NCBI GenBank assembly: GCA_902586495.1 | Contig: CACIHQ010000002.1 | Location: 1-35,000 of the forward strand | Direction: 5' to 3' | From: an uncultured Pelagibacteraceae bacterium | GTDB lineage: Bacteria; Pseudomonadota; Alphaproteobacteria; Pelagibacterales; Pelagibacteraceae | Length of the DNA stretch: 35,000 nucleotides | Shown: in pieces, positions 4,729 to 34,564 of the stretch | Layout: each line of letters begins with the position of its first letter | Position numbering within the stretch: position 1 is the stretch's first letter | Made by a program: the position numbers and the translations under genes | The notes under the pieces: generated by a model | Database searches by the model: none | Seen by the model: only the letters and a program-made list of their open reading frames with translations | Told to the model about the DNA's origin: nothing

Positions 4729-4741
4729 TTTGATTTATTTT

Positions 4742-5743: not shown

Positions 5744-5764
5744 AAAATTGTTTTTACAGTTATT

Positions 5765-6808: not shown

Positions 6809-7914
6809 AGTAATTTTTTTATAACTTTTTTTATTAATAGAAATAGCTGATTATTATAAATATCTATATCATAATCTGAGTGGCTTTTAGGTTCTTCTGA
6901 CATAATTTTTTTAAATTCTTCGTCTGATAATTGAAGCTTTTTTTTAAAAAAATTCTCAAATTGATTGATATTTTGTCCAGGTATTGGAGGGAAAGACATC
7001 ATCTCTAAAGCATGATCCCTGCTAATTTCTTTATTTCTAATTTTACACGAGAGATGTAAAATTCTTTTATCTATATTAAATTTCTTTGGCAAAATATAAC
7101 CCTGAAAAAACATAGTAAAAAAAGATTCTTGATGCTTTCCACCATAATCCTCCCAATTAAAATTTTTTTGTAAAATATCTTTAGCTTTTGTAGAATTATA
7201 ATTAATATAATCTAAAATATTTATAACATTTATCTTTTTTTTTATTTTCTCATAGTAAAACTTTTTAAAAGGATACATTCTTGGAAAGGTTTTTAATTTT
7301 TTTTTTCCAAATTTTTTGTGAATTTTTTTAATATGACTAAAATCATCTTTTCTCCACCCCCAACTATTTATTGTACTATGCTCAGTGGCAAAGTTTACAC
7401 CAGATAGAATATATTTTATTTTCTCTTTGATTGCGAAATCAATTATATATGCAAATATTGCATGATCAGTAATTAATTCAATATCAGGTACACCAGCTTT
7501 CAAGAAGCTGATTTGTAAATCTCTAAATTCCTGCCAATCTAGCACCAGAGTTTTATAATCAAAGCCTGTTTTGTCTAATATCTTACTTATATTGTGATTA
7601 GAGATTTTTGAATTCCAACCATTGTCCATATGTATGACAATTGGTTTCAATCCTAACTTCCAAGCTTTATAAACAACAAAGCTGGAGTCTATACCTCCGC
7701 TTAATCCAATTACACAATCATATCTATTATTTTTTTTACTATCAGTAATTCTGTTTTTAATTTCTGATAAATTTTTGCTTATTTCAGTTTCTGTAAAATT
7801 TGTATAAAGATTTTTTTGCTTCTCCCATTCAACACAAAAATTACAAATATTTTTTTTTGTTATTTTGAATTCTTTGATTGAATCATCCATAATACAAATG
7901 GGACAACTAACCAT
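6805..7914 (-). CDS. wbpG: N-acetyl sugar amidotransferase (WbpG/PseA family)
   Basis: Start taken at the ATG at 7914 (369 residues); a GTG 21 bases upstream would only add residues inside the hisF-like gene. The N-terminus has two CxxC pairs (C4/C7 and C24/C27), as in this family, then the PP-loop SGGIDSS at residues 72-78 that binds ATP. The enzyme activates the N-acetyl group of a sugar and replaces its oxygen with ammonia, giving an acetamidino group. Ammonia comes from the HisH/HisF-like pair encoded immediately upstream. This trio is known from P. aeruginosa O5 (WbpG/HisH2/HisF2) and acetamidino-nonulosonate loci. It overlaps the HisF-like gene by 8 bases. Whether the target is an amino-uronic acid or a nonulosonic acid is open. 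Confidence 0.9.
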   Translation of the reverse strand: MVSCPICIMDDSIKEFKITKKNICNFCVEWEKQKNLYTNFTETEISKNLSEIKNRITDSKKNNRYDCVIGLSGGIDSSFVVYKAWKLGLKPIVIHMDNGWNSKISNHNISKILDKTGFDYKTLVLDWQEFRDLQISFLKAGVPDIELITDHAIFAYIIDFAIKEKIKYILSGVNFATEHSTINSWGWRKDDFSHIKKIHKKFGKKKLKTFPRMYPFKKFYYEKIKKKINVINILDYINYNSTKAKDILQKNFNWEDYGGKHQESFFTMFFQGYILPKKFNIDKRILHLSCKIRNKEISRDHALEMMSFPPIPGQNINQFENFFKKKLQLSDEEFKKIMSEEPKSHSDYDIDIYNNQLFLLIKKVIKKLL

Positions 7915-8668
7915 ATAAGTGCTCCTTTTCTTCACCAGAAGGGTAGTTTAAAACTATTCCACCACCTGGTTTTTTCATAATAAATATTGTTGAGCTTGCA
8001 AAAGCTCTAACTCTAGTCTTTAAAACTTTTTTAATATCCGAGTAATCTTTGGCACCACCTTTGTATATTATTGGAACTTCAAAAATATTTTCTAAATTCT
8101 CAATTATTTCTAAGTTTGAACCTGACATAGAGCCATCTATACCAACATTTGTTATACAAATCTCACCTACACCTGTTTTTATTAGTAATTTTAAATAATC
8201 TTTAAGATCTAACTTTAGTTTTTTACTATTAATATAGTTATATAAATGAAAATCATTTTCGTGTTTAATAACGTCTACTGAAGCGATTACACTTTGAGAG
8301 CCAAGTACCTTTATGCATTGATCAATTAAATCAAAATTTTTTAAATTTTTATTATTTAAAATAATTTTTTCGAAACCAGATTCAATAATTTGTTCAGCCT
8401 CTTCTACGGACGATATTCCACCTCCATAACTCATTGGGAAAAAAGCTTCACCTGAAATAATCTTAAGATATTCTATATCAACTTTAGATTTATTTTTTGT
8501 TTTATATACATCTAAAATAATCATCTCATCAACTTCATAGTCATTAAAAACATTGATTACATTGATAGGATCTCCAACATATATTTCTTTTTCTTTATCA
8601 AATTTTGTAATATGGATTAAATTTCTATTTTTTAATAATAAAACTGGAATTATTCTCTTAAGTAACAT
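7907..8668 (-). CDS. wbuZ: HisF-like ammonia-channel subunit for sugar amidination (WbuZ/HisF2 family)
   Basis: Start placed at the ATG at 8668 (253 residues), matching the usual start of the family; a GTG nine bases upstream is the alternative. The product is a (beta/alpha)8 barrel of the HisF type: KRIIPVLLLKN at the N-terminus, a phosphate-site GGGIS near residue 82 and SVDVIKH with D132. In true HisF the first strand reads CLDVKDG with catalytic Asp11; here that position is Leu11, while the second catalytic aspartate (D130 in HisF, D132 here) remains. This argues against imidazole-glycerol-phosphate synthesis and for a role in passing ammonia from HisH to the amidotransferase. No other histidine gene is nearby, and the gene overlaps both partners (11 and 8 bases). 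Confidence 0.9.
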   Translation of the reverse strand: MLLKRIIPVLLLKNRNLIHITKFDKEKEIYVGDPINVINVFNDYEVDEMIILDVYKTKNKSKVDIEYLKIISGEAFFPMSYGGGISSVEEAEQIIESGFEKIILNNKNLKNFDLIDQCIKVLGSQSVIASVDVIKHENDFHLYNYINSKKLKLDLKDYLKLLIKTGVGEICITNVGIDGSMSGSNLEIIENLENIFEVPIIYKGGAKDYSDIKKVLKTRVRAFASSTIFIMKKPGGGIVLNYPSGEEKEHLYG

Positions 8669-9260
8669 CGACAACACTCTTTAATAAAAAATTAATTAAA
8701 TTAATCCCATTTCTATGACTTTTTTCTGGATGAAATTGTATACCTATAATATTTTTTTTTCTAACAATTGATGGGAATTTAATAAAATGATTAGATGTTG
8801 ATAAAATATAATCACTATCACATTCAACATAATAATTATGAGCAAAATAAAATTTTTTTTTATCAAAATCTTTCAATTTTTTTGTATAAATTTCATTCCA
8901 ACCCATGTGAAGACTGGCTTGATTTTTTGGACTTAAAAATTTTTTTACTTTACCAGAAATTAATCCCAAACCACTTAGCTTACCTTCCTCACTACTGTCA
9001 AATAAAATTTGCATACCAGCACAAATACCAATTAAATAAGTTTTATTTGAATCATTCAAATTTTTTAGTTGTTCGATAAGTTTTATCTTTTTTAAGTTAT
9101 CTATAACTTTATCAAAAGAACCAATACCTGGTAGAAAAACTAAATCGAAATCCTTAAGAATATCTCTGTCATCATAAATTTTAGCATTAAATCCACAATG
9201 GAAAAGTATATTTTTTAATGAAAGAATGTTACCACCTGAATTAATAATCAATATTTTCAT
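8658..9260 (-). CDS. wbuY: HisH-like glutamine amidotransferase subunit (WbuY/HisH2 family)
   Basis: A 200-residue class I glutamine amidotransferase. The catalytic triad is visible: C80 in LIGICAGMQIL, and H177 and E179 in GIQFHPEKS. The oxyanion-loop region reads LPGIGSF at residues 43-49. It would hydrolyse glutamine and hand ammonia to the HisF-like barrel, then to the PP-loop amidotransferase. It overlaps the hisF-like start by 11 bases and follows the GT2 gene by 6 bases, so the three subunits should be made in step. The length equals that of histidine-pathway HisH, but the neighbourhood is wholly polysaccharide. Confidence 0.9.
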   Translation of the reverse strand: MKILIINSGGNILSLKNILFHCGFNAKIYDDRDILKDFDLVFLPGIGSFDKVIDNLKKIKLIEQLKNLNDSNKTYLIGICAGMQILFDSSEEGKLSGLGLISGKVKKFLSPKNQASLHMGWNEIYTKKLKDFDKKKFYFAHNYYVECDSDYILSTSNHFIKFPSIVRKKNIIGIQFHPEKSHRNGINLINFLLKSVVDVT

Positions 9261-9266
9261 TTTATC

Positions 9267-10139
9267 TCAATTTTTTTTAAATTGTACTTTGTGAAAAGTT
9301 GGTTCTTTTAATATTAAATCTCTTAATAACAAAAAGGGTACAATAAAAATAATCGCAATAAAAATTAAATATTTTTTTTTTAAAAAAATTTTTTTTAAAT
9401 ATAAAAAATATATGTTTAATCTACGTATGAAATAAGCAAAATATTTAAAATATTTGTCTGTACTTGATCTTGGGTAGAATTTTTGACCATAGTCATGATT
9501 AATCCATTTACAGTTTTTATTATTTAAAAAAAGTATTTTACCATTTAATATTAAATCCATTTGAAAAACATAACACCAATTTGAAAGAGACATTTTATTT
9601 GGCCACCAATAACCTTCGAATGAACATTGTTTTAAAAAACTTAACCTGTGTAAACCATAAAAAAAAGCATCATCTGAATTGTAACAATATAAAAAAACTC
9701 TCTTAAAAACTGACTCGATGTCAAAATAACTTGGACGTAATAGTTTTTTATCTAATTTCTCATTGTAAAGTAACCAATATGGAACAGCGGTAGTGGCCAT
9801 TTTTTCTGAACTTAAAATTAAATATAAGTTTTCAATCGTAAATACATCAATTTCATCATCATCAGCCAACCACATAAAATATTCTGTAGAACACCTATCT
9901 CTTAAAAATAAAAAATTTTTTAAACTTCCAATATTTTTTTTATGATAATAAAACTCAATTTTTTCTGAGGAAAATTTCTTTTCTATATTTTTATAATCAG
10001 TGTATTTGTCATCTATTCCATCAACAGAAACTATTATATTAATTCCAAATTTTTCATAACTTTTTAGGCTATTTAACGCTCTTAATAAAAGATTTGGCCT
10101 TTGGTAAGTAGGTATACCAACTGTTATCTTGTTATTCAT
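9267..10139 (-). CDS. Family 2 glycosyltransferase with C-terminal membrane segment
   Basis: The product is 290 residues. The GT-A start VGIPTYQRP (residues 7-15) and the metal-binding acidic cluster LADDDEID (D93-D95) identify a GT2-type enzyme. A strongly hydrophobic stretch at about residues 253-272 next to a lysine-rich segment suggests anchoring to the inner leaflet. It is first in the leftward operon that includes the acetamidino trio, so it may transfer that sugar or initiate its part of the repeat; this is inference. The ATG at 10139 has no obvious Shine-Dalgarno sequence. Confidence 0.85.
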   Translation of the reverse strand: MNNKITVGIPTYQRPNLLLRALNSLKSYEKFGINIIVSVDGIDDKYTDYKNIEKKFSSEKIEFYYHKKNIGSLKNFLFLRDRCSTEYFMWLADDDEIDVFTIENLYLILSSEKMATTAVPYWLLYNEKLDKKLLRPSYFDIESVFKRVFLYCYNSDDAFFYGLHRLSFLKQCSFEGYWWPNKMSLSNWCYVFQMDLILNGKILFLNNKNCKWINHDYGQKFYPRSSTDKYFKYFAYFIRRLNIYFLYLKKIFLKKKYLIFIAIIFIVPFLLLRDLILKEPTFHKVQFKKN

Positions 10140-10229
10140 ATTTATCTGATTATTAATCTAAAAATATAAAAATTATACAATTTTTTATAATAAATATTTA
10201 TTAAAGATGAAATTATTATATTTTTTAAA
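10140..10229. promoter_or_regulatory. Divergent intergenic region, likely promoters for both flanking units
   Basis: Ninety bases separate the starts of a leftward nine-gene operon and a rightward methyltransferase gene. One of only two sizeable divergent gaps in the window, it must carry both promoters unless transcription reads through from elsewhere. A TATAAT hexamer on the plus strand (10186-10191) is a candidate -10 box, but no convincing -35 box is visible, and such hexamers occur by chance in DNA this AT-rich. No operator-like palindrome stands out. Confidence 0.35.
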
Positions 10230-10928
10230 ATGATAAAAGTTTTTAAATTTTTAAAATCTAGATTTATATATATAGTCAATTATTTTTTAAAACCAATATT
10301 ATACTTGCATCACTATAGTTCAAAAAAAATCAACTATGATTGGGATGTATCAAATGCAGCATATGAAAGAATTAATATTTTAAATAAAATTTCTGAGCAA
10401 ATATCTGCGAAAAAATACCTTGAAATAGGCTGTGATACTGATGTTGTTTTTAATAAAGTTAATTGTGAAAATAAGATAGGAGTAGATCCAATTAAAGGTG
10501 GGACAATTAGAGATACTAGTGATAACTTTTTCAAAAACAATAAAGAAAAATTTGATTTAATTTTTATCGATGGTTTACATACATTTGACCAAATTTTAAA
10601 AGATTTTCAAAACTCCTTTAAATTTTTGGAAGATGGAGGCTATATAGTAATGCATGATTTAATGCCTAGAAATTGGTTAGAAGAGCACGTTCCAAGAATA
10701 AGTAATAATTGGTGTGGTGATGTTTGGAAAATTTCATTCTTATTAAATGATATTCAGTATCACGAATATAATGTAATTTTGACTGATTTTGGACTAGGAG
10801 TCTTTAAAAAAAAAGGAAACAAATTATTTTTAAATAAAATAGATATGAAAAGAAAAAAATTTGATTTTTTTTGTGAAAATTTCCCAAAACTAAACTTGAT
10901 TAAAAAAGAAGAATTTTTAAAAAAATAA
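10230..10928 (+). CDS. Class I SAM-dependent methyltransferase (Methyltransf_24-like)
   Basis: A 232-residue protein. Motif I is KYLEIGC (residues 62-68), the acidic end of strand 2 is IGVDP (83-87), then FIDGLH (112-117) and the post-II stretch GGYIVMHDLMP (136-146), the order of Rossmann-fold SAM methyltransferases of the Methyltransf_24 group. The VDP...FIDGLHTF...HDLMP combination is typical of small methyltransferases in surface-glycan and nucleotide-sugar loci. A hydrophobic N-terminal segment (about residues 10-26) could make it membrane-associated. It is a single rightward gene between two leftward units, and its stop abuts the stop of the convergent NeuB-like gene with no bases between. 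The methylated substrate, perhaps a terminal or repeat sugar, is unknown. Confidence 0.8.
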   Translation: MIKVFKFLKSRFIYIVNYFLKPILYLHHYSSKKINYDWDVSNAAYERINILNKISEQISAKKYLEIGCDTDVVFNKVNCENKIGVDPIKGGTIRDTSDNFFKNNKEKFDLIFIDGLHTFDQILKDFQNSFKFLEDGGYIVMHDLMPRNWLEEHVPRISNNWCGDVWKISFLLNDIQYHEYNVILTDFGLGVFKKKGNKLFLNKIDMKRKKFDFFCENFPKLNLIKKEEFLKK

Positions 10929-11726
10929 CTAATTTTTTCTAAATCTTCCTCTGTAATTTTCATACACATCTATCTCACTTCTTTGAATATTCAGTCCATG
11001 ATCAATCATCATTTTTTGTATTTCTTTTTCGTAATTACAAATTTGTTCCAATTCTTTAGGAAGTATGGCAAATTTATTATCTCTACCTTCCAATTTATTA
11101 TCTATAGTAAAATGTTTTTCAATTACTTTTGCTCCATTACTCAAGGCAAATAATGCATCATTAATACCCTTTGCGTGTCCAGAATAACCAACATTTCTAA
11201 AATTTTCTTTTAAATAAAAGAATTTTTTAAAATTACAATAATCATAATCTAGAGGATATGTACTTACACAATGTAAAATAAAAAATTTTTCTAAATCTTT
11301 AAATTGTAATAAATTTTCTAATTCATTTTTTTTCAAAGCACCTGTTGAGACAAACACATACTCAAAATCATTTAAGGATTTTTTTATAAGGTCTATATCA
11401 TAAGCTTCCACAGAAGGTATTTTTATATATTTTGTGCTAACTGATTTAAGAATTTCATATTCTTTATCACTAAAAATAGAGGCAAAGCATTCAATGTTTA
11501 TGGATTTAGAATAATTAAATAATTCTAAATATCTATCATGATTCAAAAAAGCCTTTTGGTAAATCTCGCGTCTGCCATCATTATCCCATTCCCCCTTTTT
11601 TAAATTAGAAGGATCCCACAATTGAAATTTAACAATTTTACAACCTGATTTTTTAGAAGAATCAATCATCTTTTTTGCTAACTGAAGATCTCCTAAAAAA
11701 TTCCAACCAATTTCAGAAATAACCAT
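10929..11726 (-). CDS. NeuB-family nonulosonate synthase, short form without SAF domain
   Basis: A 265-residue TIM-barrel protein related to N-acetylneuraminate/pseudaminate/legionaminate synthases, which condense phosphoenolpyruvate with a six-carbon amino sugar to give a nine-carbon 3-deoxy acid. It begins directly at ISEIGWNFLGD (canonical AEIGxNHxGD). The metal-site histidines appear as SGH (H184) and IEKH (H205), and HCVSTYP (residues 152-158) matches the family. Normal NeuB proteins are about 340-350 residues, with a C-terminal SAF (antifreeze-like) domain that completes the partner subunit's active site. Here the chain stops just after the barrel. A stop codon lies three codons upstream of the ATG, so the N-terminus cannot be longer. 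It is last in the long leftward run, 30 bases after the radical SAM gene. Confidence 0.85.
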   Translation of the reverse strand: MVISEIGWNFLGDLQLAKKMIDSSKKSGCKIVKFQLWDPSNLKKGEWDNDGRREIYQKAFLNHDRYLELFNYSKSINIECFASIFSDKEYEILKSVSTKYIKIPSVEAYDIDLIKKSLNDFEYVFVSTGALKKNELENLLQFKDLEKFFILHCVSTYPLDYDYCNFKKFFYLKENFRNVGYSGHAKGINDALFALSNGAKVIEKHFTIDNKLEGRDNKFAILPKELEQICNYEKEIQKMMIDHGLNIQRSEIDVYENYRGRFRKN

Positions 11727-22704: not shown

Positions 22705-24048
22705 CTACAAAATGTTAATTACATTATCTCTGCTATTTTCTTTAAAACTTATACTTTTTTCAAAAATAGATTTTGTTTTAAGCGCCTCAAACCAAAAAGC
22801 AAAAATTGAATTATCATATCTATAAGTTAACTCATTATTATATTCTAAATTATCAAATCTTCCTTTATTTATACAAAAGAAATTTTTTCTTTTGAGAACA
22901 AATAATGGATCAGACTGCTTTATCACTGAAAATGTCGACAATTTACCACTTGAAACTAAAGTATCTAAAACTTGATCTAAATGGCCTTTGTTTTTAACAA
23001 CAGTGTGAATATTTATAAATACAACAATATCTGGATTTTTTTTTTTATTTTTTTTAAAAAAATTACAGCTATCTAACATTACGTCCTCTATTCTTGAAAT
23101 TCCACTATTTAATTTAGGAGATCTTTTAAGAATTTGAAACTTATTAGATATTTTTTTTTTTTGTTTTAGATAATTTATCAATTTATGATCGCTAGTTGAA
23201 ATTATAGAATGATTGATTTTCTTGGATTTATCAACCATATCGATGGAAATATCTATTAATTTTTTTGATTTATATTTAATAAATGGCACATCTTTTTTTT
23301 TTATATAGTTACTTTTAACAGGTATTATAGCCAAGATATCTAAATTTTTTTTTTTGTAAGTATTTTGATTTTTTTTAAAAATTTTTGATCTCTCTTTTAA
23401 TATTTTTTTATAGTTATCAGACAATGAATACCCATGTTTTCTATAATAAAAGAGTGGTAAACGGATACATTTATATTTTACTTTATTTTTTAGTTTAAAC
23501 CATAAATCCCATCCATCTTGAGCCTTAAATTCTGTTGAGTAACCTCCCACTGCAATAAGATCTTTGACTGAAATCAAACAACACGCGCCATGGGGTGGAA
23601 CATTGTCATTTTTAATTAAATCAAAATTATTTTCTACCCCAATAATTTTTCCATAAATATTTGTATAATAATATCCAGAATATACTAAACCATTATTTTT
23701 ATTTTTTTTAATTTCATTGAACATTAATTCTAAAGCGCACTCATGAAGCCAATCGTCTGCATCTAATCTTAAGATGTATTCAGTTTTAATATTTTTAAGT
23801 ACGTGATTAGATAATTTTTGTAAGCCAATACTTTTTTTAAAATTTAAAACTGTTATTTTTTTTTTATTTTTTTTTTTAAAATTATTATATATTTTCAATG
23901 TACTATCAGTAGATCCATCATTAATAAGGTAAAGTTGCCAATGTTTAAAGGTTTGAGCTAAAACACTACCTATTGATTTTTTTAAAAATTTTCCATAATT
24001 TCTTGATACTATATATACACAAATTTTATCTTCTTTTTGCTTCTTCAT
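22705..24048 (-). CDS. Fused GT2 glycosyltransferase and NeuA-like cytidylyltransferase domain
   Basis: A 447-residue protein with two recognisable parts. Residues 1 to about 225 form a GT2 domain: VYIVSRNYGKFL (11-22), LINDGSTDST (41-50), RLDADDW (94-100, metal aspartates D96/D98/D99), and a KAQDGWDLW stretch. Residues about 236-447 look like a CMP-sialate synthetase: LAIIPVK at 239-245 where NeuA has IIPARGGSK, then KKLIDISIDMVDKS, ISTSDHKLI (283-291), and a run matching the later NeuA strands. The nucleotide-binding Arg and Gly-Ser-Lys of NeuA are replaced by Val-Lys-Ser-Asn, so catalysis is doubtful. It overlaps the SpsF-like gene by 23 bases. Both halves are in one open frame with no stop or frameshift. 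Confidence 0.8.
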   Translation of the reverse strand: MKKQKEDKICVYIVSRNYGKFLKKSIGSVLAQTFKHWQLYLINDGSTDSTLKIYNNFKKKNKKKITVLNFKKSIGLQKLSNHVLKNIKTEYILRLDADDWLHECALELMFNEIKKNKNNGLVYSGYYYTNIYGKIIGVENNFDLIKNDNVPPHGACCLISVKDLIAVGGYSTEFKAQDGWDLWFKLKNKVKYKCIRLPLFYYRKHGYSLSDNYKKILKERSKIFKKNQNTYKKKNLDILAIIPVKSNYIKKKDVPFIKYKSKKLIDISIDMVDKSKKINHSIISTSDHKLINYLKQKKKISNKFQILKRSPKLNSGISRIEDVMLDSCNFFKKNKKKNPDIVVFINIHTVVKNKGHLDQVLDTLVSSGKLSTFSVIKQSDPLFVLKRKNFFCINKGRFDNLEYNNELTYRYDNSIFAFWFEALKTKSIFEKSISFKENSRDNVINIL

Positions 24049-25790: not shown

Positions 25791-26954
25791 ATGAGAAAAA
25801 AAATTATATTTGGCCAACCATCTATCGGGAATGAAGAAATAAATTATATTACTAAAGTAATTAAATCTAAATGGATTGGAAGTGGCAAGGTAACTGAAAA
25901 ATTTGAAAATAATTTTAAAAATTACAAAAAAAGTAAATTTGCAGTTTCCGTAAATTCATGTACAGCTGCATTACATCTGTCTTTAATATATTGTGGTGTT
26001 AAAATAGGAGATGAGGTAATAACAACACCAATGACTTTTGCATCTACAATCAATTCTATTGCCATGATTGGTGCAAAACCGATTTTAGCAGATATCAACC
26101 CAGAAACTTTTAATATAGATCCTAAAAACATTGAAAAACTTATTACAAGAAAAACAAAAGCAATCTTAATTGTTCATTTAGCAGGTTTGCCTTGTGAAAT
26201 TATGAAAATAATGAAAATCGCAAAAAAATATAATTTAAAAGTAATTGAGGATTGTGCACATGCTATTGAAAGCAAAATAAATGGTAAACATGTTGGGAAT
26301 TTTGGAGATGCAGGTTGTTTTAGTTTTTATTCAACAAAAAATCTTACTACAGGTGAGGGTGGTATGATAATTTGTGATGATAAAAATTTTTATAAAAAAA
26401 TAAGGGTAGCAAGACTTCATGGATTATCAAAAGACGCCTGGAAAAGATATTTGCCAGAAAGTGTTAACAAAAAATATTATGAGCATTATGATGTCACAGA
26501 AATAGGTTACAAGTATAATATGATAGATATCAATGCAGCTATGGGAATAATTCAACTTAAAAAATTAGATAAAAACTGGATGATAAGAAAAAAATTATTC
26601 TACATCTACAAGAAAAAACTTAAAAATCTTCCAATTAAATTTCAAAAAATCGAATTCAAAAATATTAAACACGCTTATCATTTATTTTTATTGGTAGTTG
26701 ATAAAGATAAAACAAATAAAAATCGCAATGACTTAATAAAATTTTTAAACTTAAAAGGTGTTGGAGTAGGTATAAATTACAGAACGGTCACAGACATGAG
26801 TATTTTTAGAAAAAAATTTAATTGGAATAATAGGACATGTCCAAATTCAAAATATCTTGGTGATAATACTTTAAGTCTACCGATTCATCCTAAAGTTCAA
26901 AAAAAAGAGGCATTATATATTTGTGAAAAAATCAGAGAATTTTTTAATAAATAA
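25791..26954 (+). CDS. DegT-family NDP-4-keto-sugar 4-aminotransferase (ArnB/PseC/LegC-like)
   Basis: A 387-residue PLP aminotransferase. SKWIGSGKVTEKFE (26-39), NSCTAALHLSL (55-65), DEVITTPMTFAST (74-86), VIEDCAHAIE with D154, and FYSTKNLTTGEGGM with K183 follow the ArnB/PseC/LegC pattern of 4-amination on a nucleotide-linked 4-keto sugar. In pseudaminate and legionaminate routes this follows a 4,6-dehydratase, none of which is visible here. First gene of a rightward operon continuing with a PseG-like hydrolase, SDR and NeuB, which supports a nonulosonate role. ATG start, 32-base overlap with the next gene. Confidence 0.9.
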   Translation: MRKKIIFGQPSIGNEEINYITKVIKSKWIGSGKVTEKFENNFKNYKKSKFAVSVNSCTAALHLSLIYCGVKIGDEVITTPMTFASTINSIAMIGAKPILADINPETFNIDPKNIEKLITRKTKAILIVHLAGLPCEIMKIMKIAKKYNLKVIEDCAHAIESKINGKHVGNFGDAGCFSFYSTKNLTTGEGGMIICDDKNFYKKIRVARLHGLSKDAWKRYLPESVNKKYYEHYDVTEIGYKYNMIDINAAMGIIQLKKLDKNWMIRKKLFYIYKKKLKNLPIKFQKIEFKNIKHAYHLFLLVVDKDKTNKNRNDLIKFLNLKGVGVGINYRTVTDMSIFRKKFNWNNRTCPNSKYLGDNTLSLPIHPKVQKKEALYICEKIREFFNK

Positions 26955-27951
26955 GATAACTTTTAGGTGTGATGCAGGTGAGATTTCTGGCTTAGGCACT
27001 GGTCATGTTTATCGTTCAATTAATATAGCTAATTTCTTAAAAAAAAAATTTCGTTTGAAAAAAAAAAAAATTTTTTTTTTAATAAAATATCAAAATAAAT
27101 TTAAATCTGGATATGAAATCGTGAGAAAAAACGGTTATAAGGTTATTAAGGTAGATAAAAATATTATAAATTATTCATCTAAAGAAATAAAATTATTAAA
27201 TAAATTTAAATCAAATTTACTAATTATTGATAGACTTGGTAAAGTTAATGCACATTTTATTAATAAGATAAAAAATAATTACAAAAAAAAAATAATTTTA
27301 GATGATTCTTCTCAAAATAGAAAAAAGTTTGACTTAAGCTTAAATGCACTAATTAGAGATGTAAGATCAGTTAAAAACTCAAAAATAGGTTTTGAATATA
27401 TGATACTCAGACTTAAAAAAACTAAAAACAAAAAAAATTTAAAAAATAATCAAATATTTATGTTTTTTGGTGGGTTTGATAAAAAAAAATACTCGATACA
27501 TTTATTAAAAATTCTTAATAAATTAAAATTTAGATTAAATATAAATCTCCCAAAAATCTATATAAAAAATCTCAGTGAAATTAAATCTAAACACAAATTA
27601 ACATTTTTTGATAACAAAGATTATCTAGATAAATTAAAAAGAAGTAATATTGTTTTTAGTTCAGGTGGATTAATATTATTTGACTCAATATTAATGAACA
27701 AAAAGATTATTTGTTTGCCTCAATACAATCATCAAAAAAGAAATGCAAATGAACTATTTAAAAAAGGGGCAATAAAATACTTTTCTAAAATTAATGAAAA
27801 CAAAATATTGAATTTTTTTTTAAAAATTTATGATAATCAAGCTTATGAAAGAAAAATTGATTTCGTACAAAAACAAATAATTAATTTGAAAAAAATTAGA
27901 AGAAATTATAATTTAATCGGAAAAATTTATGAACAATCTATCAGTAGATAA
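26923..27951 (+). CDS. pseG: PseG/SpsG-like NDP-sugar hydrolase
   Basis: The product is 342 residues from a GTG at 26923; no in-frame ATG lies near, and the conserved block begins at residue 12. FRCDAGEISGLGTGHVYRS (14-32) holds H28, matching the catalytic histidine of PseG's GxGHxxR motif, though the loop is longer than usual. The C-terminal lobe has FSSGGLILFDSILMNKK and a HQKRNANELFKKGA stretch, the GT-B-like nucleotide-binding side. PseG removes UDP from a 2,4-diacetamido-trideoxy sugar ahead of the NeuB/PseI condensation. Residues 46-53 are encoded by a run of 13 A then 10 T. The start overlaps the aminotransferase by 32 bases. Confidence 0.82.
   Translation: MKKSENFLINKITFRCDAGEISGLGTGHVYRSINIANFLKKKFRLKKKKIFFLIKYQNKFKSGYEIVRKNGYKVIKVDKNIINYSSKEIKLLNKFKSNLLIIDRLGKVNAHFINKIKNNYKKKIILDDSSQNRKKFDLSLNALIRDVRSVKNSKIGFEYMILRLKKTKNKKNLKNNQIFMFFGGFDKKKYSIHLLKILNKLKFRLNINLPKIYIKNLSEIKSKHKLTFFDNKDYLDKLKRSNIVFSSGGLILFDSILMNKKIICLPQYNHQKRNANELFKKGAIKYFSKINENKILNFFLKIYDNQAYERKIDFVQKQIINLKKIRRNYNLIGKIYEQSISR
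27058..27080. repeat. A13T10 homopolymer tract inside the PseG-like gene
   Basis: Thirteen A followed directly by ten T, encoding Lys-Lys-Lys-Lys-Ile-Phe-Phe-Leu near codons 46-53. A gain or loss of one base would end the protein early. Such runs are slippage-prone in replication and error-prone in sequencing. The present count keeps the frame open. Confidence 0.9.
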
Positions 27952-28705
27952 TTTATTCAACTTTAAAAAAAAGATAGTAGTCATAACAGGCTCAAGTGGC
28001 CAATTAGGAAATGCTTTCTCAAAACTTTTTTTGTCACAAGGAGCCTTTGTAATCGGTATGGACATTAAAAATACCAAACTTAAAGATAAAAAATTTTTTT
28101 TTTATAAAATAGAAATTTCTAATAAAAAGAGAGTTGAGCGTTTATTTCATAAAATAATATTAAAATTTAAAAAAATAGATATAATAATAAACAATGCAAG
28201 TATTTCTGTGTATTCAAAATTTGATAAAAGAAAAGATATCGAAATTAATAAAACTTTAAATTCTAATTTGAAAGGCAGCTTAAATTTAATAAATACTTAT
28301 TTATCTGAGCATAAAAAAATGAAATTAAAAAAATGTAATATCATTAACATTGGTTCAATTTATGGATTTTTAAGCCCTGATTTTAGGATTTATGGAAAAA
28401 ATGATAATTTTAGTTCAGAAATTTATGGCGCTTCTAAAGCCGCTATAATTCAATTAACAAAATATTACAGTGTGGCATTATCAAAATATAATATTAATGT
28501 GAATTGTATTTCTCCAGGTGGAATATTTAATAAAAAAAATCCTCAAAGTAAGTTATTTTTAAAAAAATATTCTATGAGAGTGCCTAAAAATAGAATTGGG
28601 AAAGAGGAAGATTTATTCACCGCACTTCTTTTTCTATCTAGTGATTACTCTGAGTATATTAATGGTCAAAATATCATTATCGATGGAGGATTATCTTCAT
28701 GGTAA
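27929..28705 (+). CDS. Classical short-chain dehydrogenase/reductase
   Basis: A 258-residue enzyme. VVITGSSGQLG (17-27) is the cofactor-binding TGxxxGxG-like motif. IINNAS (86-91) is the NNAG-equivalent, and S143, Y166 and K170 (EIYGASK) are the catalytic residues. The end NCISPGG and a closing IIDGG are standard. In nonulosonate loci such SDRs (PtmA-like) oxidise or reduce a sugar intermediate; the substrate is not known. It overlaps the PseG-like gene by 23 bases and the NeuB-like gene by 7, so it is part of the same translated block. Confidence 0.86.
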   Translation: MNNLSVDNLFNFKKKIVVITGSSGQLGNAFSKLFLSQGAFVIGMDIKNTKLKDKKFFFYKIEISNKKRVERLFHKIILKFKKIDIIINNASISVYSKFDKRKDIEINKTLNSNLKGSLNLINTYLSEHKKMKLKKCNIINIGSIYGFLSPDFRIYGKNDNFSSEIYGASKAAIIQLTKYYSVALSKYNINVNCISPGGIFNKKNPQSKLFLKKYSMRVPKNRIGKEEDLFTALLFLSSDYSEYINGQNIIIDGGLSSW

Positions 28706-29517
28706 AAAATAAAAACTTTTTAATTGCTGAAGCAGGTATAAATCATAATGGTAATCTAAAAACAGCTCTTAAGCTCGTAGATACTGCAAAAAAAAGTGGG
28801 GCGGATGCGATTAAATTTCAAACTTATATTACTGAAAAAAGAGTAAATAAAAAATATCATAAAATTTTCGATATTTTAAAAAAATGTGAGTTGCCTTTTA
28901 AAAGTTTTAAAATTTTAAGTGACTATTGTAAAAAAAAAAAAATTAATTTTTTTTCAACCCCTTTTGATATTGAATCTGTAAATTTTTTGGAAAGCATAAA
29001 TGTAAAAACTTTTAAAGTTGCATCGTTTGACATAGGAAATTTTGAGTTAATTAACGAAATTATCAAAACAAAGAAAAAAACTATAATTTCAACAGGCATG
29101 GCTAGCTACAATGAAATAAAAAAAGTTTATAAAAAATTCAAAGAAAAAAGAGTGGATATTGCATTACTTCATTGTGTGTCTTCATACCCCAACAAAGAAG
29201 AGACTTCTTACCTTTCTAACATAAGTTATCTTAAAAAAAAATTTAGCTGTGAAATCGGAATTTCTGATCATACAAATGATATAAAAATACCAATTTATGG
29301 TAATTTATTAGGGGCTAACATAATTGAGAAACACCTTAAAATAAACCATAATCATAAATGTGTAGACTCTGCTGTATCAATAACTGGAACACAAATGAAA
29401 ACATTAAAATCAGAATTAGATAAAATAAAAATTATAATTAATAAAACCAAATTTGGGTTAAGAAAGGCAGAAAAAGGGAGTGTGATTTTTAAAAGAAAAA
29501 AAATCTACAAACAATAA
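28699..29517 (+). CDS. neuB: NeuB-family nonulosonate synthase, second short form without SAF domain
   Basis: A 272-residue protein. FLIAEAGINHNGNL (7-20) with E11 is the canonical opening, ADAIKFQTY (35-43) the next block, FSTPFD (85-90), STGMAS (131-136), LLHCVSSYP (157-165), GISDHT with H191 and IIEKH with H212 the metal-site residues. It is a better match to the NeuB/PseI family than the copy at 10929-11726. It also ends at the point where the SAF domain of standard NeuB would start (about 340-350 residues expected), just after a RKAEKGSV-like linker. Preceded by the SDR and a PseG-like hydrolase, which would release the sugar substrate. A run of 13 A at 28930-28942 lies inside it. Confidence 0.88.
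   Translation: MVKNKNFLIAEAGINHNGNLKTALKLVDTAKKSGADAIKFQTYITEKRVNKKYHKIFDILKKCELPFKSFKILSDYCKKKKINFFSTPFDIESVNFLESINVKTFKVASFDIGNFELINEIIKTKKKTIISTGMASYNEIKKVYKKFKEKRVDIALLHCVSSYPNKEETSYLSNISYLKKKFSCEIGISDHTNDIKIPIYGNLLGANIIEKHLKINHNHKCVDSAVSITGTQMKTLKSELDKIKIIINKTKFGLRKAEKGSVIFKRKKIYKQ
28930..28942. repeat. A13 homopolymer tract inside the NeuB-like gene
   Basis: Thirteen consecutive A encode Lys-Lys-Lys-Lys-Ile near residues 78-82. It has the same length as the tracts at 27058, 31080 and 31315, all in one operon. Slippage would truncate the synthase; the tract is also a likely place for assembly errors. Confidence 0.85.
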
Positions 29518-29560
29518 AAATTATTGTTATAAGTTAGTCTGTATATCTAAAAAAATTACA

Positions 29561-30868
29561 ATGAAAACAAGAAAAAGTTTTACTTTATACAAGAAAGCAA
29601 AAAAATTAATTCTTAATGGTAACATGCTTTTATCAAAGAGACCTGAAATGATTTTGCCAAAGAAATGGCCAGGTTATTTTTCTAAAGCTAAGGATGTATT
29701 TGTTACTGATTTAGATAATAACAAGTATTTAGACATGATGTGTATAGTGGGACATAATATATTGGGCTATGGAAATAAAAAAATTGACCAAAAAGTTTCC
29801 AACGAAATTAAAAAAGGTAATATGTGTACCTTAAACTCAAAATATGAAGTTTTGTTAGCCCAAAAATTAATCAAGCTTCATCCCTGGGCGAAAAAATGTA
29901 CTTTTGCTAGATCGGGTGGTGAGGCAAATGCTATTGCTATTAGAATAGCAAGAGCCTTCAATAAAAAGGATAATATTGCAGTTTGTGGATACCATGGATG
30001 GCATGATTGGTATTTATCTCTCAATCTAGAAAGTCCAAATAATTTAAATACTCATCTTTTGAAGGGATTGTCAACTGATGGTGTTCCTAAAAGATTAAAA
30101 GGTTTGACTTCAACCTTTAATTATGGAGATTTTGAAAAATTAAAAAAAATTCACAAAGAGAGAAAATTATCTGCAGTCATAATGGAAGTTTGTAGAGACA
30201 CTTTACCAAATATTAATTTCTTAAAAAAAGTAAGAAGTTTTACCAGTGAAAATGGTATAGTTTTAATCTTTGACGAATGCACGACTGGATTCAGAAGATG
30301 TCTAGGTGGTATACACAAAATTGCCAATGTTAATCCTGATTTAGCGATGTTTGGCAAAGCTCTAGGGAATGGATATGCAATTACAGCAGTACTTGGAAGT
30401 AAAAAAATTATGGATAAGGCAAATAAAAGTTTTATTAGTAGCACTTTTTGGAGTGAAAAAATCGGTTTTGTAGCTGGGCTAACAACACTAACAGAAATGA
30501 AAAGAGTTGAGAGCTGGAAAAAAATTATTCATTTAGGAAAATATGTTAACAAAGAATGGTTAAGATTAAAAAAAAAACATGGTCTTGATTTCAAGATCAA
30601 AGGTATCGAGTCTATGACATCATTTGTTTTTAAAAAAAACCATTTAAAGTATAAGACTTATATTACCCAAGAAATGTTAAAAAAAAATATTTTGGCAACT
30701 AATATGATCTTTCTTACAACTAAACATGATAAAATAATGATAAATAAATATTTAAAAAATTTAGATATAATTTTTAGGAAGATTTCCCACATAGAAAAAA
30801 ATAATTTAGACATAGATAAATTTTTAAAAAGTCCTGTTTGCCACGACACTTTTAAAAGACTTAATTAA
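29561..30868 (+). CDS. Class III (GSA-aminotransferase-like) PLP enzyme in nonulosonate operon
   Basis: A 435-residue fold-type I enzyme. FARSGGEANAIAIRIAR (115-131), CGYHGWHDW (142-150), LIFDECTTGFR with D238 (235-245) and FGKALGNGYAI with the Schiff-base K266 (264-274) give the class III aminotransferase order. GSA aminomutase, the haem enzyme, is a relative but has a GGG-type turn after the lysine, unlike this GNG. The context (NeuB, SDR, PseG upstream; a surface transferase overlapping by one base downstream) points to amination of a glycan sugar or its side chain. It follows the NeuB gene by 43 bases with no terminator seen. Its exact substrate is unknown. Confidence 0.85.
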   Translation: MKTRKSFTLYKKAKKLILNGNMLLSKRPEMILPKKWPGYFSKAKDVFVTDLDNNKYLDMMCIVGHNILGYGNKKIDQKVSNEIKKGNMCTLNSKYEVLLAQKLIKLHPWAKKCTFARSGGEANAIAIRIARAFNKKDNIAVCGYHGWHDWYLSLNLESPNNLNTHLLKGLSTDGVPKRLKGLTSTFNYGDFEKLKKIHKERKLSAVIMEVCRDTLPNINFLKKVRSFTSENGIVLIFDECTTGFRRCLGGIHKIANVNPDLAMFGKALGNGYAITAVLGSKKIMDKANKSFISSTFWSEKIGFVAGLTTLTEMKRVESWKKIIHLGKYVNKEWLRLKKKHGLDFKIKGIESMTSFVFKKNHLKYKTYITQEMLKKNILATNMIFLTTKHDKIMINKYLKNLDIIFRKISHIEKNNLDIDKFLKSPVCHDTFKRLN

Positions 30869-32181
30869 TGAATCTTTACATAGAATTAGAGATATATAAC
30901 AGAGAGATAGAAGCGAAAATGCTACTGGCATTAGAAGCTGTTAAAAGAGGTTATAGTGTACTAATAGCACATAGGTCTGAAATTCAAAAATTAGCCTTAC
31001 AAAATAAAATTCCACCTGGAATTATTCACATGAAAGATGCAAACTCAAATGAGTATCAAGTAAATATACTAAAAAAACTAAAAAAAAAAAAATTCTTTTT
31101 TACTGCTCAGGATGAGGAGTCAGGGATACTAAATAAAAGATATGATAGTTTTGCGAAAATTCGATTTAGTAACTTTAGATCATTTAATTTTTTAAGTTAT
31201 TTTTTTTGCTGGGGAAACAGGGATTACAATTATTTAAAAAGAAAAACAAAAAACGCAATCTTAACAGGTTCACCCAGGTTTGATTTATTCAAACTTAAAA
31301 AACCAAAAAAAAATAAAAAAAAAAAAATTTTAATTATTTCAAGCTTTAATGTGACTGGCGTAAGAAATTTTGCAGATAGAATTTTTGCTACTACAGGATT
31401 AAGGGATAAATATAATGAATTTGCAGAAAAATTTGCTTATAACATGGAAAGTATTCATGCTTTAAAAGTTTACCATTTTGTAAAATTGATAAGATATTTA
31501 TCAAAAAATTTTAAAAACTATGAAATTTCTTTGAGGCCTCATCCTAACGATAACTTTCAAGATTGGACCAAACTGATAAATTTTAAATCAAAAAATATAA
31601 AAATAGAAAATGTTAAAGATTTAACTCTTGATAAATCTATTTTAAAATCTAAGTTTGTTATCCAAAATGGATGTACATCAGCTATTGAAAGCTTACTTTT
31701 GAACATACCCTGCATAAGTTACGTCCCACAAAAATGGAAAGAAGATGAATTATCTGAATTTCCCAACTCACTTGGAATTAAAGCCAAAAATCATTCTGAA
31801 GTGGCAAAAATAATAAAAAAAGAATCTACTGAAAAATTATTAATAAAGAAAAAACTCCTCAAAAAAAGGTTTTTTTTTGAAAAGAGTTCTTACGCTTATG
31901 AAAGACAAATAAATATTTTTGATAAAATAAATAAAAATTTTAAAAAATTTGACCCATCAATTTATTTCAAACAAAAAAATCTGCTAAAAAATACGTTAAA
32001 GGAAATAAAATATATATTTTTGGAAAGAAAGAAATCACCTATTGAGCATAAATTTCCAAAATTTGAAAAAATGAAAATCAGAACAATTATCAATGAAATA
32101 TCCCATTTATCAAAGAAAAATTATTACTCAAATACAAAATTTGAAATTATTTCTGATAGAATATTATTTTTAAGAAAATAA
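30868..32181 (+). CDS. Surface carbohydrate biosynthesis transferase-like protein (GT-B fold)
   Basis: A 437-residue protein starting by TAATG overlap with the class III enzyme. It begins YIELEIYNREIEAKMLL, has a GSPRFDLF block near residue 131, RPHPND near 225 and NGCTSAIESLLLNIPCISY (about 268-286). That HP...G-T-S-ExLLxxxP layout is shared by capsule/sialic transferases and CDP-polyol phosphotransferases, and the N-terminus recalls the group named surface carbohydrate biosynthesis protein. It could transfer the nonulosonate made by this operon. Long A runs at 31080 and 31315 are within the gene. It is the last rightward gene here; its stop lies two bases from the convergent formyltransferase stop. 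Confidence 0.72.
   Translation: MNLYIELEIYNREIEAKMLLALEAVKRGYSVLIAHRSEIQKLALQNKIPPGIIHMKDANSNEYQVNILKKLKKKKFFFTAQDEESGILNKRYDSFAKIRFSNFRSFNFLSYFFCWGNRDYNYLKRKTKNAILTGSPRFDLFKLKKPKKNKKKKILIISSFNVTGVRNFADRIFATTGLRDKYNEFAEKFAYNMESIHALKVYHFVKLIRYLSKNFKNYEISLRPHPNDNFQDWTKLINFKSKNIKIENVKDLTLDKSILKSKFVIQNGCTSAIESLLLNIPCISYVPQKWKEDELSEFPNSLGIKAKNHSEVAKIIKKESTEKLLIKKKLLKKRFFFEKSSYAYERQINIFDKINKNFKKFDPSIYFKQKNLLKNTLKEIKYIFLERKKSPIEHKFPKFEKMKIRTIINEISHLSKKNYYSNTKFEIISDRILFLRK
31080..31092. repeat. A13 homopolymer tract inside the surface-carbohydrate gene
   Basis: Thirteen A near codon 72 of the surface-carbohydrate transferase, encoding Lys-Lys-Lys-Lys after Leu. With the tract at 31315 the gene has two slippage-prone sites; either would knock the frame out. 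Confidence 0.85.
31315..31327. repeat. Second A13 homopolymer tract in the surface-carbohydrate gene
   Basis: Thirteen A encoding Lys-Lys-Lys-Lys-Ile before an ILIISS strand. It is the fourth tract of the same length in the rightward operon and could vary in length between cells or in sequencing reads. Confidence 0.85.
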
Positions 32182-32183
32182 TT

Positions 32184-32816
32184 TTATTTTTCTTTTAAAA
32201 TCCTTAATAAAAATTTTTTTTTTCTAAATATAAAAAAAGCTGGGAAATTGTTATTGTCGCAAATCCTTAGAAGATCAAATTGAGACTTTAAACTTTTGTT
32301 TATATTTATTTCGCTATCCTTATTTGTTCTACGTCTTAAGAAGTTAATTTTCTTAGGGGTAAACATTTTATATTTCTTTTTCTTAAAATACGATTTGATC
32401 ATATCAATTGAGTTTTCAAATTGTTTGTTTTTTATTTCATCGTAAAGCAAAGTATCATCATAATAATAATTTTTTTTTATAATAACCTGACCATCATCTA
32501 ATCCTTTTTTTGAATCTATAATAAATAAAGTGGAGGTAATTTTTTTTTTCCCTTGAAGTATTTGCCAGAATAAAGGTGAAAAGCCTTTATTTTCTGGTAA
32601 GTTTGATTCGTGGTTTACTATAAATTTGAGTGATTTATTTAAATATTTTTTTGGAATGATTTTATAATAACTCAAAACAAAACATAATTTTTCGTTTAAG
32701 TTTACCTTTTTTGGATCTGTAAAAATTTTAATATTCTTTTTAAAAATTTTACGAATTTGCTTTCTTTTGTATAAGTAAAACCATGAAGATTTTGAGGTTA
32801 AAATACAGAAATTCAT
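32184..32816 (-). CDS. Small sugar N-formyltransferase-like protein
   Basis: A 210-residue protein. FIVNHESNLPENKGFSP (65-81) holds H69 of the formyltransferase HxSxLP block. TLFIIDSKKGLDDGQVI (96-112) supplies the catalytic aspartate (D107), and RRRTNKDSEI near residue 160 matches the C-terminal substrate stretch of N-formyltransferases. It would transfer a formyl group from N10-formyl-tetrahydrofolate to a sugar amine. The catalytic Asn normally two residues before His is a Val here, with Asn at -1, and the N-terminal domain is short, so activity is less certain. It overlaps the SpsF gene by ATGA and is the second gene of a leftward pair. Confidence 0.75.
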   Translation of the reverse strand: MNFCILTSKSSWFYLYKRKQIRKIFKKNIKIFTDPKKVNLNEKLCFVLSYYKIIPKKYLNKSLKFIVNHESNLPENKGFSPLFWQILQGKKKITSTLFIIDSKKGLDDGQVIIKKNYYYDDTLLYDEIKNKQFENSIDMIKSYFKKKKYKMFTPKKINFLRRRTNKDSEININKSLKSQFDLLRICDNNNFPAFFIFRKKKFLLRILKEK

Positions 32817-33589
32817 AAAAAAACTTTTTTTCTACGAAACCTTTGTTTAACCACATTTTTTCTCATGATCTTTTCAATTTTTTTATTTTTTTTGATTATA
32901 TCAACTAGTTCAGTTGTATTTCCAAATATTTTTGATTTCATAATCTTATTAATTAGGTATTTTACCACTAAAATGTCGGTTTTATAATCAATAGTATATC
33001 TATAATGAGAAAAATCCTCTTTTAAAGGATATATTTTTGTTTTAAATTTTTTTGTTGACCAAAATTTGTTTGTCACATGTTCTTTGTCATCTCTATTTAA
33101 ATTCATCTCAGACATCTTTTTTAGAGCCTCAATAGTAAAAATTTCTATATCAGCTCCATCAGGATATTTCTTAATTTTTTCGGGTAAAGTATTAGATAGA
33201 TAATCTAATTTCTTTTTCCTAAAATATGTGTACATTTTTTTTATTAAAAAAGGATCAACTAATGGGCAATCAGAAGTAACTCTGATTATATTTTTAGTGT
33301 TGAATTTCCTTGAACAGTCTAAATATCTTTTTAATACATTTTTTTCGGACCCTTCAAAATATTTTATTTTGTGCCTGTCTAAAATTTTTTTAATCTTAAA
33401 ATTTTTTTGATCTTTAGCTAAAGCAAAAATTATTTTACTTTCGTCAAATTTTTTTAGTAGTCTTAAAATTAAGAATTCAATTACAGTAAATTTTCTATAT
33501 ATTTTTTTTAAAATTTTATTTTTTAATCGATTAGAATTTAATCTAGCTTGTATTATTATTGCATAACTAATATAATTATTGCTTACCAT
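32813..33589 (-). CDS. spsF: SpsF-like cytidylyltransferase, second copy
   Basis: Start put at the ATG at 33589 (258 residues); a TTG nine bases upstream is the only alternative. YAIIIQARLNSNRLKNKIL (9-27) is the NTP-binding loop and IIRVTSDCPLVDP the metal/NTP region; DKEHVTNKFW and YRYTIDYKTD are the late SpsF blocks. It fits CMP-activation of a nonulosonic acid. It differs strongly from the copy at 24026, as expected if two different acids are activated, or the same one in two gene sets. Its start codon abuts that of the rightward formyltransferase. It is transcribed ahead of the small formyltransferase and coupled to it. Confidence 0.86.
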   Translation of the reverse strand: MVSNNYISYAIIIQARLNSNRLKNKILKKIYRKFTVIEFLILRLLKKFDESKIIFALAKDQKNFKIKKILDRHKIKYFEGSEKNVLKRYLDCSRKFNTKNIIRVTSDCPLVDPFLIKKMYTYFRKKKLDYLSNTLPEKIKKYPDGADIEIFTIEALKKMSEMNLNRDDKEHVTNKFWSTKKFKTKIYPLKEDFSHYRYTIDYKTDILVVKYLINKIMKSKIFGNTTELVDIIKKNKKIEKIMRKNVVKQRFRRKKVFL

Positions 33590-33592
33590 ATG
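33587..33592. promoter_or_regulatory. CATATG palindrome formed by two head-to-head start codons
   Basis: The minus-strand ATG of the cytidylyltransferase gene (33589-33587) and the plus-strand ATG of the formyltransferase gene (33590-33592) touch, forming CATATG. No bases separate the two genes, so each promoter and leader must lie inside the other's coding sequence unless mRNAs are leaderless. No Shine-Dalgarno sequence was seen on either side. Confidence 0.75.
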
Positions 33593-34564
33593 AAACAATC
33601 AAAATTAAGACTCTGTCTATTTGGAACCAGTATTCTAAATGAATATATCTCACAAAACTATAAAAAAAATAAGATAGAATATATGTGCATAATTACTCAT
33701 AAGGATGATAAGAGAGATTTAAATTTGTTAAATAATTATAGATTGTTTCCTCTGAAAAAAAATATTAAATGTGATATCTATTATCTTTCAAAATATGATG
33801 AGAAAAAAATTATAAAAATTTTAAATCAACATAAGATTAATTTTGGTATATCTATAGGCTGTAGATTTATTTTTAAAAGTAGAATTATTAAGTATTTTAA
33901 GAATAAATTATATAATGTTCATGATTCATATTTACCCTATTACAAAGGAGGGGCTCCTATATCTTATTCAATAATGAATAATGAAAAATATATCGGGATA
34001 AGTTTTCACGAAATAAATGAAAAAATTGATGGAGGAAGAGTTATTTTAAAAAAGAAATTTGTGATAAAAAAAAATATAAAACCGATAGATGCAATTAATA
34101 AATATTATTACCACTTAAAAAAAGATATCTTTAAATTCATTAAATTAAAAAAAAGGACTAAAATTCAGAATAGTTTACAAAGTACATATTTTCCGAGATT
34201 GAACTCTGAAATGAATGGTTTTTTAAATTTAAATTGGAATGCTGAGGAATGTGTTTCGTTTATAAATAGTTTTTCTGATCCATACCCAGGAGCTCATGCC
34301 CTCTATAATGGGAAAAAAATAATTATCAAAAATGCTAAAATTCAATCAAAAAAAAAGTACCATTCATTTTTAAACGGTAAAATTATAAACATTGGTAAAG
34401 ATTATATAAGAGTAATAATGGGAAATAAAATAGTTCAGCTTAAGAATTTAACTTTCAAAAATCGGATTATTAAACCTAAGTTTTTTTTTAAAGCTGGAGG
34501 CACTATTTTTAATTATGATACAAAATTAACAAAAGCCAAAAAAGCGATTAAAAAATATTTTTAA
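33590..34564 (+). CDS. Sugar N-formyltransferase (methionyl-tRNA formyltransferase-like)
   Basis: Start taken at the ATG at 33590 (324 residues); 14 codons upstream are open but run back into the divergent gene. LYNVHDSYLPYYKGGAP (107-123) contains N109 and H111, and EINEKIDGGRVIL contains D147, the Asn-His-Asp triad of formyltransferases. A LNLNWNAEECVSFINSF stretch and a DPYPGA segment near residue 240 mark the C-terminal part, followed by a beta-rich domain resembling that of methionyl-tRNA formyltransferase. In this setting it more likely formylates an amino sugar than Met-tRNA. It stands alone between the divergent SpsF gene and the ABC exporter gene. Confidence 0.85.
   Translation: MKQSKLRLCLFGTSILNEYISQNYKKNKIEYMCIITHKDDKRDLNLLNNYRLFPLKKNIKCDIYYLSKYDEKKIIKILNQHKINFGISIGCRFIFKSRIIKYFKNKLYNVHDSYLPYYKGGAPISYSIMNNEKYIGISFHEINEKIDGGRVILKKKFVIKKNIKPIDAINKYYYHLKKDIFKFIKLKKRTKIQNSLQSTYFPRLNSEMNGFLNLNWNAEECVSFINSFSDPYPGAHALYNGKKIIIKNAKIQSKKKYHSFLNGKIINIGKDYIRVIMGNKIVQLKNLTFKNRIIKPKFFFKAGGTIFNYDTKLTKAKKAIKKYF

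Follow-up and report, generated by a model that had tools for sequence, protein, structure and literature searches.

A rare SAR11 variant of a widespread nonulosonate gene cluster, with a proposed nonulosonate aminotransferase

The six-gene operon described here, from an uncultured Pelagibacteraceae (SAR11) genome, carries an SDR oxidoreductase and neither an aldo/keto reductase (AKR) nor PseB, and represents a rare form of a nonulosonate gene cluster that is widespread but functionally undescribed. The reading that we prefer, and to which we give an even chance, is that the product of the operon is a CMP-activated nonulosonic acid resembling pseudaminate or legionaminate and bearing one extra amino group, for use in a surface polysaccharide, with the operon's class III PLP aminotransferase (AT3) aminating an oxidised C8. 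The window, by which we mean the whole stretch of DNA that was analysed, covers positions 1 to 35,000 of contig C2, starting at the contig end, in a genome assembly of 1.05 Mb that is 79.5% complete.

The ORF listing confirmed six genes on the forward strand at 25791-32181. Successive genes are separated by -32, -23, -7, +43 and -1 bases, and they therefore probably form one transcription unit. The first encodes AT1 (25791-26954, +), a DegT/PseC/ArnB-like sugar aminotransferase (Pfam DegT, 390 bits) that scored 317 bits against the PseC model, where the cut-off is 423.5, and 322 bits against ArnB, also under the cut-off. This gene shares 32 bases with the next, which encodes a PseG-like UDP-sugar hydrolase (26923-27951, +; GTG start from the ORF list), for which the TIGR03590 score was 80.5 bits against a cut-off of 153.6. 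These are followed by a PtmA-like SDR oxidoreductase (27929-28705, +), with scores of 152 bits to PRK09186 and 101 bits to PtmA, each below its cut-off, and by a 272-aa NeuB synthase core without a C-terminal SAF domain (28699-29517, +; Pfam NeuB, 220 bits). AT3 itself (29561-30868, +; Pfam Aminotran_3, 133 bits) precedes a TIGR04396 surface carbohydrate biosynthesis protein, possibly a transferase (30868-32181, +; 201 bits, above the cut-off of 125). The initial annotation had described this six-gene order, and both the ORFs and their families stood up to analysis, but it had overlooked a neighbouring cytidylyltransferase and two formyltransferase-like genes. Fmt1 (32184-32816, -; Pfam Formyl_trans_N, 32 bits) is a small formyltransferase-like protein and a candidate for N-acylation, and its relatives occur inside nonulosonate clusters among the AT3 loci described below. 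The SpsF-type cytidylyltransferase (32813-33598, -; Pfam CTP_transf_3, 55 bits) is a candidate for CMP activation, and Fmt2 (33548-34564, +; Pfam Formyl_trans_N and Formyl_trans_C), whose real start probably lies 3' of the listed TTG, is a further candidate for N-acylation. Judged by sequence, the SpsF-type enzyme and the two formyltransferase-like proteins could supply the CMP-activation and N-acylation steps.

Of 197 family genomes, 33 have relatives of AT3, and beyond the family such relatives occur in hundreds of genome records from several phyla. For the analysis of gene context, 98 AT3 loci were gathered with AT3 as the sole query, so that the neighbouring genes were not selected for. 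An SpsF-type gene is fused to AT3 or lies near it in 69 of these 98 loci, an AKR is found near AT3 in 69/98, and NeuB (58/98), PseC (53/98) and PseB (49/98) lie within 8 kb. In the common form of the cluster, the AKR is upstream of SpsF-AT3, with PseB, PseC, PseG and NeuB around them. One locus (L038) encodes an AKR-SpsF-AT3 triple fusion, as does L040 with the AKR cut short, while in two others (L107 and L121) an EpaA-like cytidylyltransferase-AKR protein adjoins SpsF-AT3. The annotated order on a Pseudosulfitobacter plasmid is pseB-pseC-AKR-GNAT-hypothetical-class III-pseG-pseI. At 14 further loci AT3 lies beside NanA and/or NanE, and the one locus of this type that was examined in detail also encodes the kinase NanK and a transporter of the peptide type; in the tree, the Nan-type copies branch from among the biosynthetic members at two or more points. 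Taken together, the partners of AT3 in the biosynthetic and Nan-type loci point to a nonulosonate as its substrate. Around biosynthetic AT3 genes an SDR and an AKR seldom appear side by side: both were present once, an SDR only 7 times, an AKR only 68 times and neither 8 times (Fisher p ~1e-5, the loci not being independent). Measured against the AKR-SpsF-AT3 cassette, the window has AT3, an SpsF-type partner and NeuB, with an SDR instead of the AKR. EpaA-like genes were also sought in phage records, which gave a single weak match only.

By sequence AT3, the proposed nonulosonate aminotransferase, falls in a family of its own. The PLP lysine, K266, is invariant in 98/98 family members, and a YHGWxDWYL motif, FISSTFW and a C-terminal FKRLN are nearly always present among the 98 relatives; our literature search found no assayed member. 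A role in haem metabolism, which the initial annotation had named as a possible refutation, is ruled out: against the HemL model AT3 scored 187 bits, with a cut-off of 527, and AT3 was rejected as HemL on this score. Alphaproteobacteria normally reach the haem precursor by a different route. In GabT and ArgD, an arginine holds the carboxylate of glutamate. This residue is missing from AT3 and its relatives in the aligned sequences, as it is from HemL, which weakens any assignment of an amine donor and makes an aminomutase possible. Such a HemL-like enzyme would, once a neighbouring hydroxyl had been oxidised, shift an existing amine, for example from C7 to C8 or from C5 to C4. We consider this quite unlikely: HemL models are among those closest to AT3 and the shared lack of the arginine fits, but the known 8-amino sugar has nitrogen at C5 and C7 as well (PMC3210612), and among the structures close to the predicted AT3 model (mean pLDDT 83) are ordinary aminotransferases, FumI and GenB3/GenB4 for instance. 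The model matched class III aminotransferase structures with Z of 33-36 over ~330-360 residues, and its Foldseek matches likewise include GenB3 and GenB4. Both of these enzymes aminate a sugar side chain.

On the preferred reading, in which AT3 acts as an aminotransferase, AT1 would put an amine on a nucleotide-linked 4-keto-6-deoxy sugar, the PseG-like enzyme would strip the nucleotide from the aminated sugar, and NeuB would couple that sugar to phosphoenolpyruvate, with the neighbouring SpsF-type enzyme attaching CMP; the order of these steps is one that we infer. The PtmA-like SDR would turn a side-chain hydroxyl, most likely that at C8, into a ketone, which AT3 would transaminate to the amine. 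Elsewhere it is mostly the AKR that would perform the oxidation, and in the window the SDR, which also sits between PseG and NeuB in two relatives (G182 and G220), is proposed to stand in for it as the C8 (or C4) oxidase. C4 is no less open to amination than C8.

The choice of C8 draws on published chemistry. EpaA, a cytidylyltransferase-AKR protein, and the SDR EpaB convert pseudaminate to its 8-epimer, as NMR showed (PMC12053666), and the exchange of one SDR gene for another accompanies the 8-epimer of acinetaminic acid, with which the SDR AciE is associated (PMC5595891). The O-antigen of Flexibacter maritimus contains an 8-amino-3,5,7,8,9-pentadeoxy nonulosonic acid in which C5 and C7 bear amides (PMC3210612), and a literature search found no genes for an 8-amino nonulosonic acid. 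By analogy, the best model to join these facts would be formation of an 8-ketone by an AKR or SDR, followed by amination by AT3. That the class III enzyme adds an amino group at the tail of the acid, as first suggested from the DNA, thus appears well supported by the conserved nonulosonate partners of AT3, by EpaA/EpaB and by the F. maritimus sugar, with C8 as the best reading. The AT3 family would then supply candidate enzymes for the synthesis of 8-amino nonulosonic acids, a sugar type known chemically. The AT3 cluster possibly also explains an unassigned flagellar sugar of 403 Da in Aeromonas hydrophila AH-1, a strain cited as an example of a small single-sugar island, in which three fragments lie one unit off those of Pse5Ac7Ac9Ac (PMC4691044). 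The odd mass fits an odd nitrogen count on our present reading; the authors propose otherwise, and in their ranking a nitrogen-free formula came first (PMC4691044). The relatives of AT3 in operons for sialic-acid catabolism (NanA, NanE, NanK) suggest that abundant marine bacteria may make, and possibly degrade, such sugars.

Comparison with known systems places the window close to the Aeromonas flagellin glycosylation islands of group I, which have the order pseB-pseC-AKR-pseF-class III aminotransferase-pseG-pseI; most group I islands contain the AKR and the class III aminotransferase (PMC7874193). By published gene order, the likeness lies in a class III gene beside the cytidylyltransferase and PseG, together with PseC and NeuB homologues, whereas the window has an SDR for the AKR, no PseB and a SAF-less NeuB. 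The cluster itself was drawn in Aeromonas with no function given (PMC7874193), and the claim of a wholly undescribed pathway is consequently weaker and supported in part only. In Legionella Sg6/12, a gene named as an aminomutase/class III enzyme lies between PseG and the cytidylyltransferase (PMC3694923). The Campylobacter and Helicobacter pseudaminate and legionaminate pathways share PseC-, PseG- and NeuB-like steps and a PtmA-like SDR with the window, which differs in having no 4,6-dehydratase or PseH over cut-off, an extra class III enzyme, and formyltransferases nearby. In Shewanella, amination at C8 of an ulosonic acid, in the synthesis of Kdo8N, is achieved by the dehydrogenase and aminotransferase pair KdnA/KdnB; there, the enzyme families are different and the sugar has eight carbons. 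As described, the Acinetobacter systems EpaA/EpaB and AciE resemble the window in a cytidylyltransferase-AKR fusion and in SDRs with a bearing on C8, but they yield an epimer where the window has an aminotransferase (PMC12053666, PMC5595891). The Bacillus subtilis sps genes for legionaminate share an SpsF-type cytidylyltransferase, SpsG/PseG and a dehydratase gene set apart; a class III enzyme, which the window has, is not reported for them (PMC7439481).

Parts of the cassette recur in SAR11 relatives. G220 (92% complete) carries PseG (cut by a contig end), SDR, short NeuB, AT3 and SpsF in the same order. In G182 (94% complete), AT1-SpsF is followed by two opposite-strand genes, then a radical SAM gene and PseG-SDR-short NeuB, with AT3 ~4 kb further on and on the opposite strand. 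G297 has AT1, PseG (49% identical) and a 572-aa carbamoyltransferase-like protein before the SDR, with masked sequence thereafter; its AT1 is 71% identical to that of the window, compared with 57% for the G182 copy. Because the G297 cassette lies near the same flanks as in the window contig, namely a 430-aa peptidase-like gene and a PrmC-like gene, the cassette seems to lie in a variable part of the SAR11 chromosome. Among the genomes searched, no AKR was detected in the present one (G000), G182, G220 or G297, but G003 has one. The link between SDR and AT3 is weaker than that between AKR and AT3, since the AT3 copies in the SDR contexts of G220 and G003 are distant (~43%) and that of G182 is encoded on the opposite strand, ~4 kb off.

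The opening 4,6-dehydratase (PseB/LegB) and the N-acetyltransferase had been described as missing from the window, and this was borne out across the whole, 79.5% complete, assembly, in which no match passed the cut-off for PseB (best 38 bits versus 408), LegB (122 versus 475) or PseH (34.8 versus 93). The formyltransferases may replace PseH. No disguised PseB or LegB was found among the epimerases of the window, none of which came near the cut-offs and whose motifs, read by eye, are epimerase-like rather than dehydratase-like. The missing dehydratase may reflect the incomplete assembly or a remote gene, such as that for the Bacillus dehydratase SpsM, whose gene stands away from the rest of the sps genes (PMC7439481). 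Either would suit an ordinary pseudaminate or legionaminate route, with PseB or LegB in the fifth of the genome that the assembly lacks and AT3 serving a minor purpose or one that does not concern the sugar skeleton, as would the position of the window at a contig end. This we hold to be unlikely, as G182 and G220 have the same cassette, no PseB match at E 1e-12 and no LegB over the cut-off, and fusions bind AT3 to the cytidylyltransferase. PseB is present in G003, whose cluster is of the common form. The best LegB-like matches in G182 and G220 are RmlB-like genes adjoining a thymidylyltransferase-like gene; these, and one in G297, were rejected as the dehydratase, being RmlB-like in a conserved context. 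The absence of the dehydratase is thus reproduced in relatives, and there may still be a distant one.

A further alternative is that the pathway does not start from UDP-GlcNAc, and that AT1 takes another 4-keto sugar, for example the product of RmlB, with the SAF-less NeuB accepting a sugar that has no 2-acetamido group. The SAF domain contacts the acetamido group of the substrate. Its lack in the window NeuB would agree with this alternative, as would the lack of PseB and LegB in this genome, G182 and G220, each of which encodes an RmlB-like enzyme next to a thymidylyltransferase. We nonetheless regard such a start as very unlikely, because NeuBs without the SAF domain also occur elsewhere, in 6ncs and in other SAR11 loci. 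The chance is similarly slim that these features make up a separate SAR11 pathway, in which a non-GlcNAc 4-keto start, the SAF-less NeuB, and the SDR with a class III amine at C8 would lead to a nine-carbon acid of undescribed amino pattern.

Shortening of the NeuB gene by a frameshift was rejected, as no SAF-coding remnant was found in any frame of the stretch that follows it and two orthologues are equally short and SAF-less. The conserved NeuB residues are retained, and the protein falls short of the equivalog cut-offs for PseI and NeuB; the solved chain closest to it, 6ncs, is likewise short at 290 aa. A search of 385 class-level genomes gave no additional match at E 1e-70, and the search in G297 was empty, the stretch 3' of its SDR being masked. 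At E 1e-60, relatives of this NeuB were found in 3 of 297 family genomes (this one, G182 and G220). Another SAF-less NeuB is encoded in the window at 10929-11726.

Relatives of AT3, the class III aminotransferase of the main operon, were also seen in other settings. A marine alphaproteobacterial locus (L058, 849-16349) contains one alongside NanA, NanE and NanK, together with an ABC transporter of the peptide type and a possible sialidase with BNR repeats, and degradation of aminated nonulosonates by this locus is possible. Another (42%) lies on a plasmid of the haloarchaeon Halorussus aquaticus (L137, 8965-10308), close to NeuB, DegT and SDR genes. In G182, a 94% complete family genome, a B12-binding radical SAM gene (L133, 6750-8372) is located directly upstream of PseG-SDR-NeuB, and its product might act on the sugar, or on a precursor of it, as a modifying enzyme.

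Besides the main operon, the window holds another acidic-sugar cluster on the minus strand (3625-11726), in which a NeuB without SAF (10929-11726) is accompanied by a WbuX amidotransferase, HisF-like and HisH-like genes, a DegT aminotransferase, a Gfo/Idh dehydrogenase and an epimerase, a gene set as for an amidino sugar. The C-terminal half of a GT2 glycosyltransferase (22705-24048, minus strand) resembles CMP-sugar cytidylyltransferases at 22.5 bits, slightly below the cut-off.
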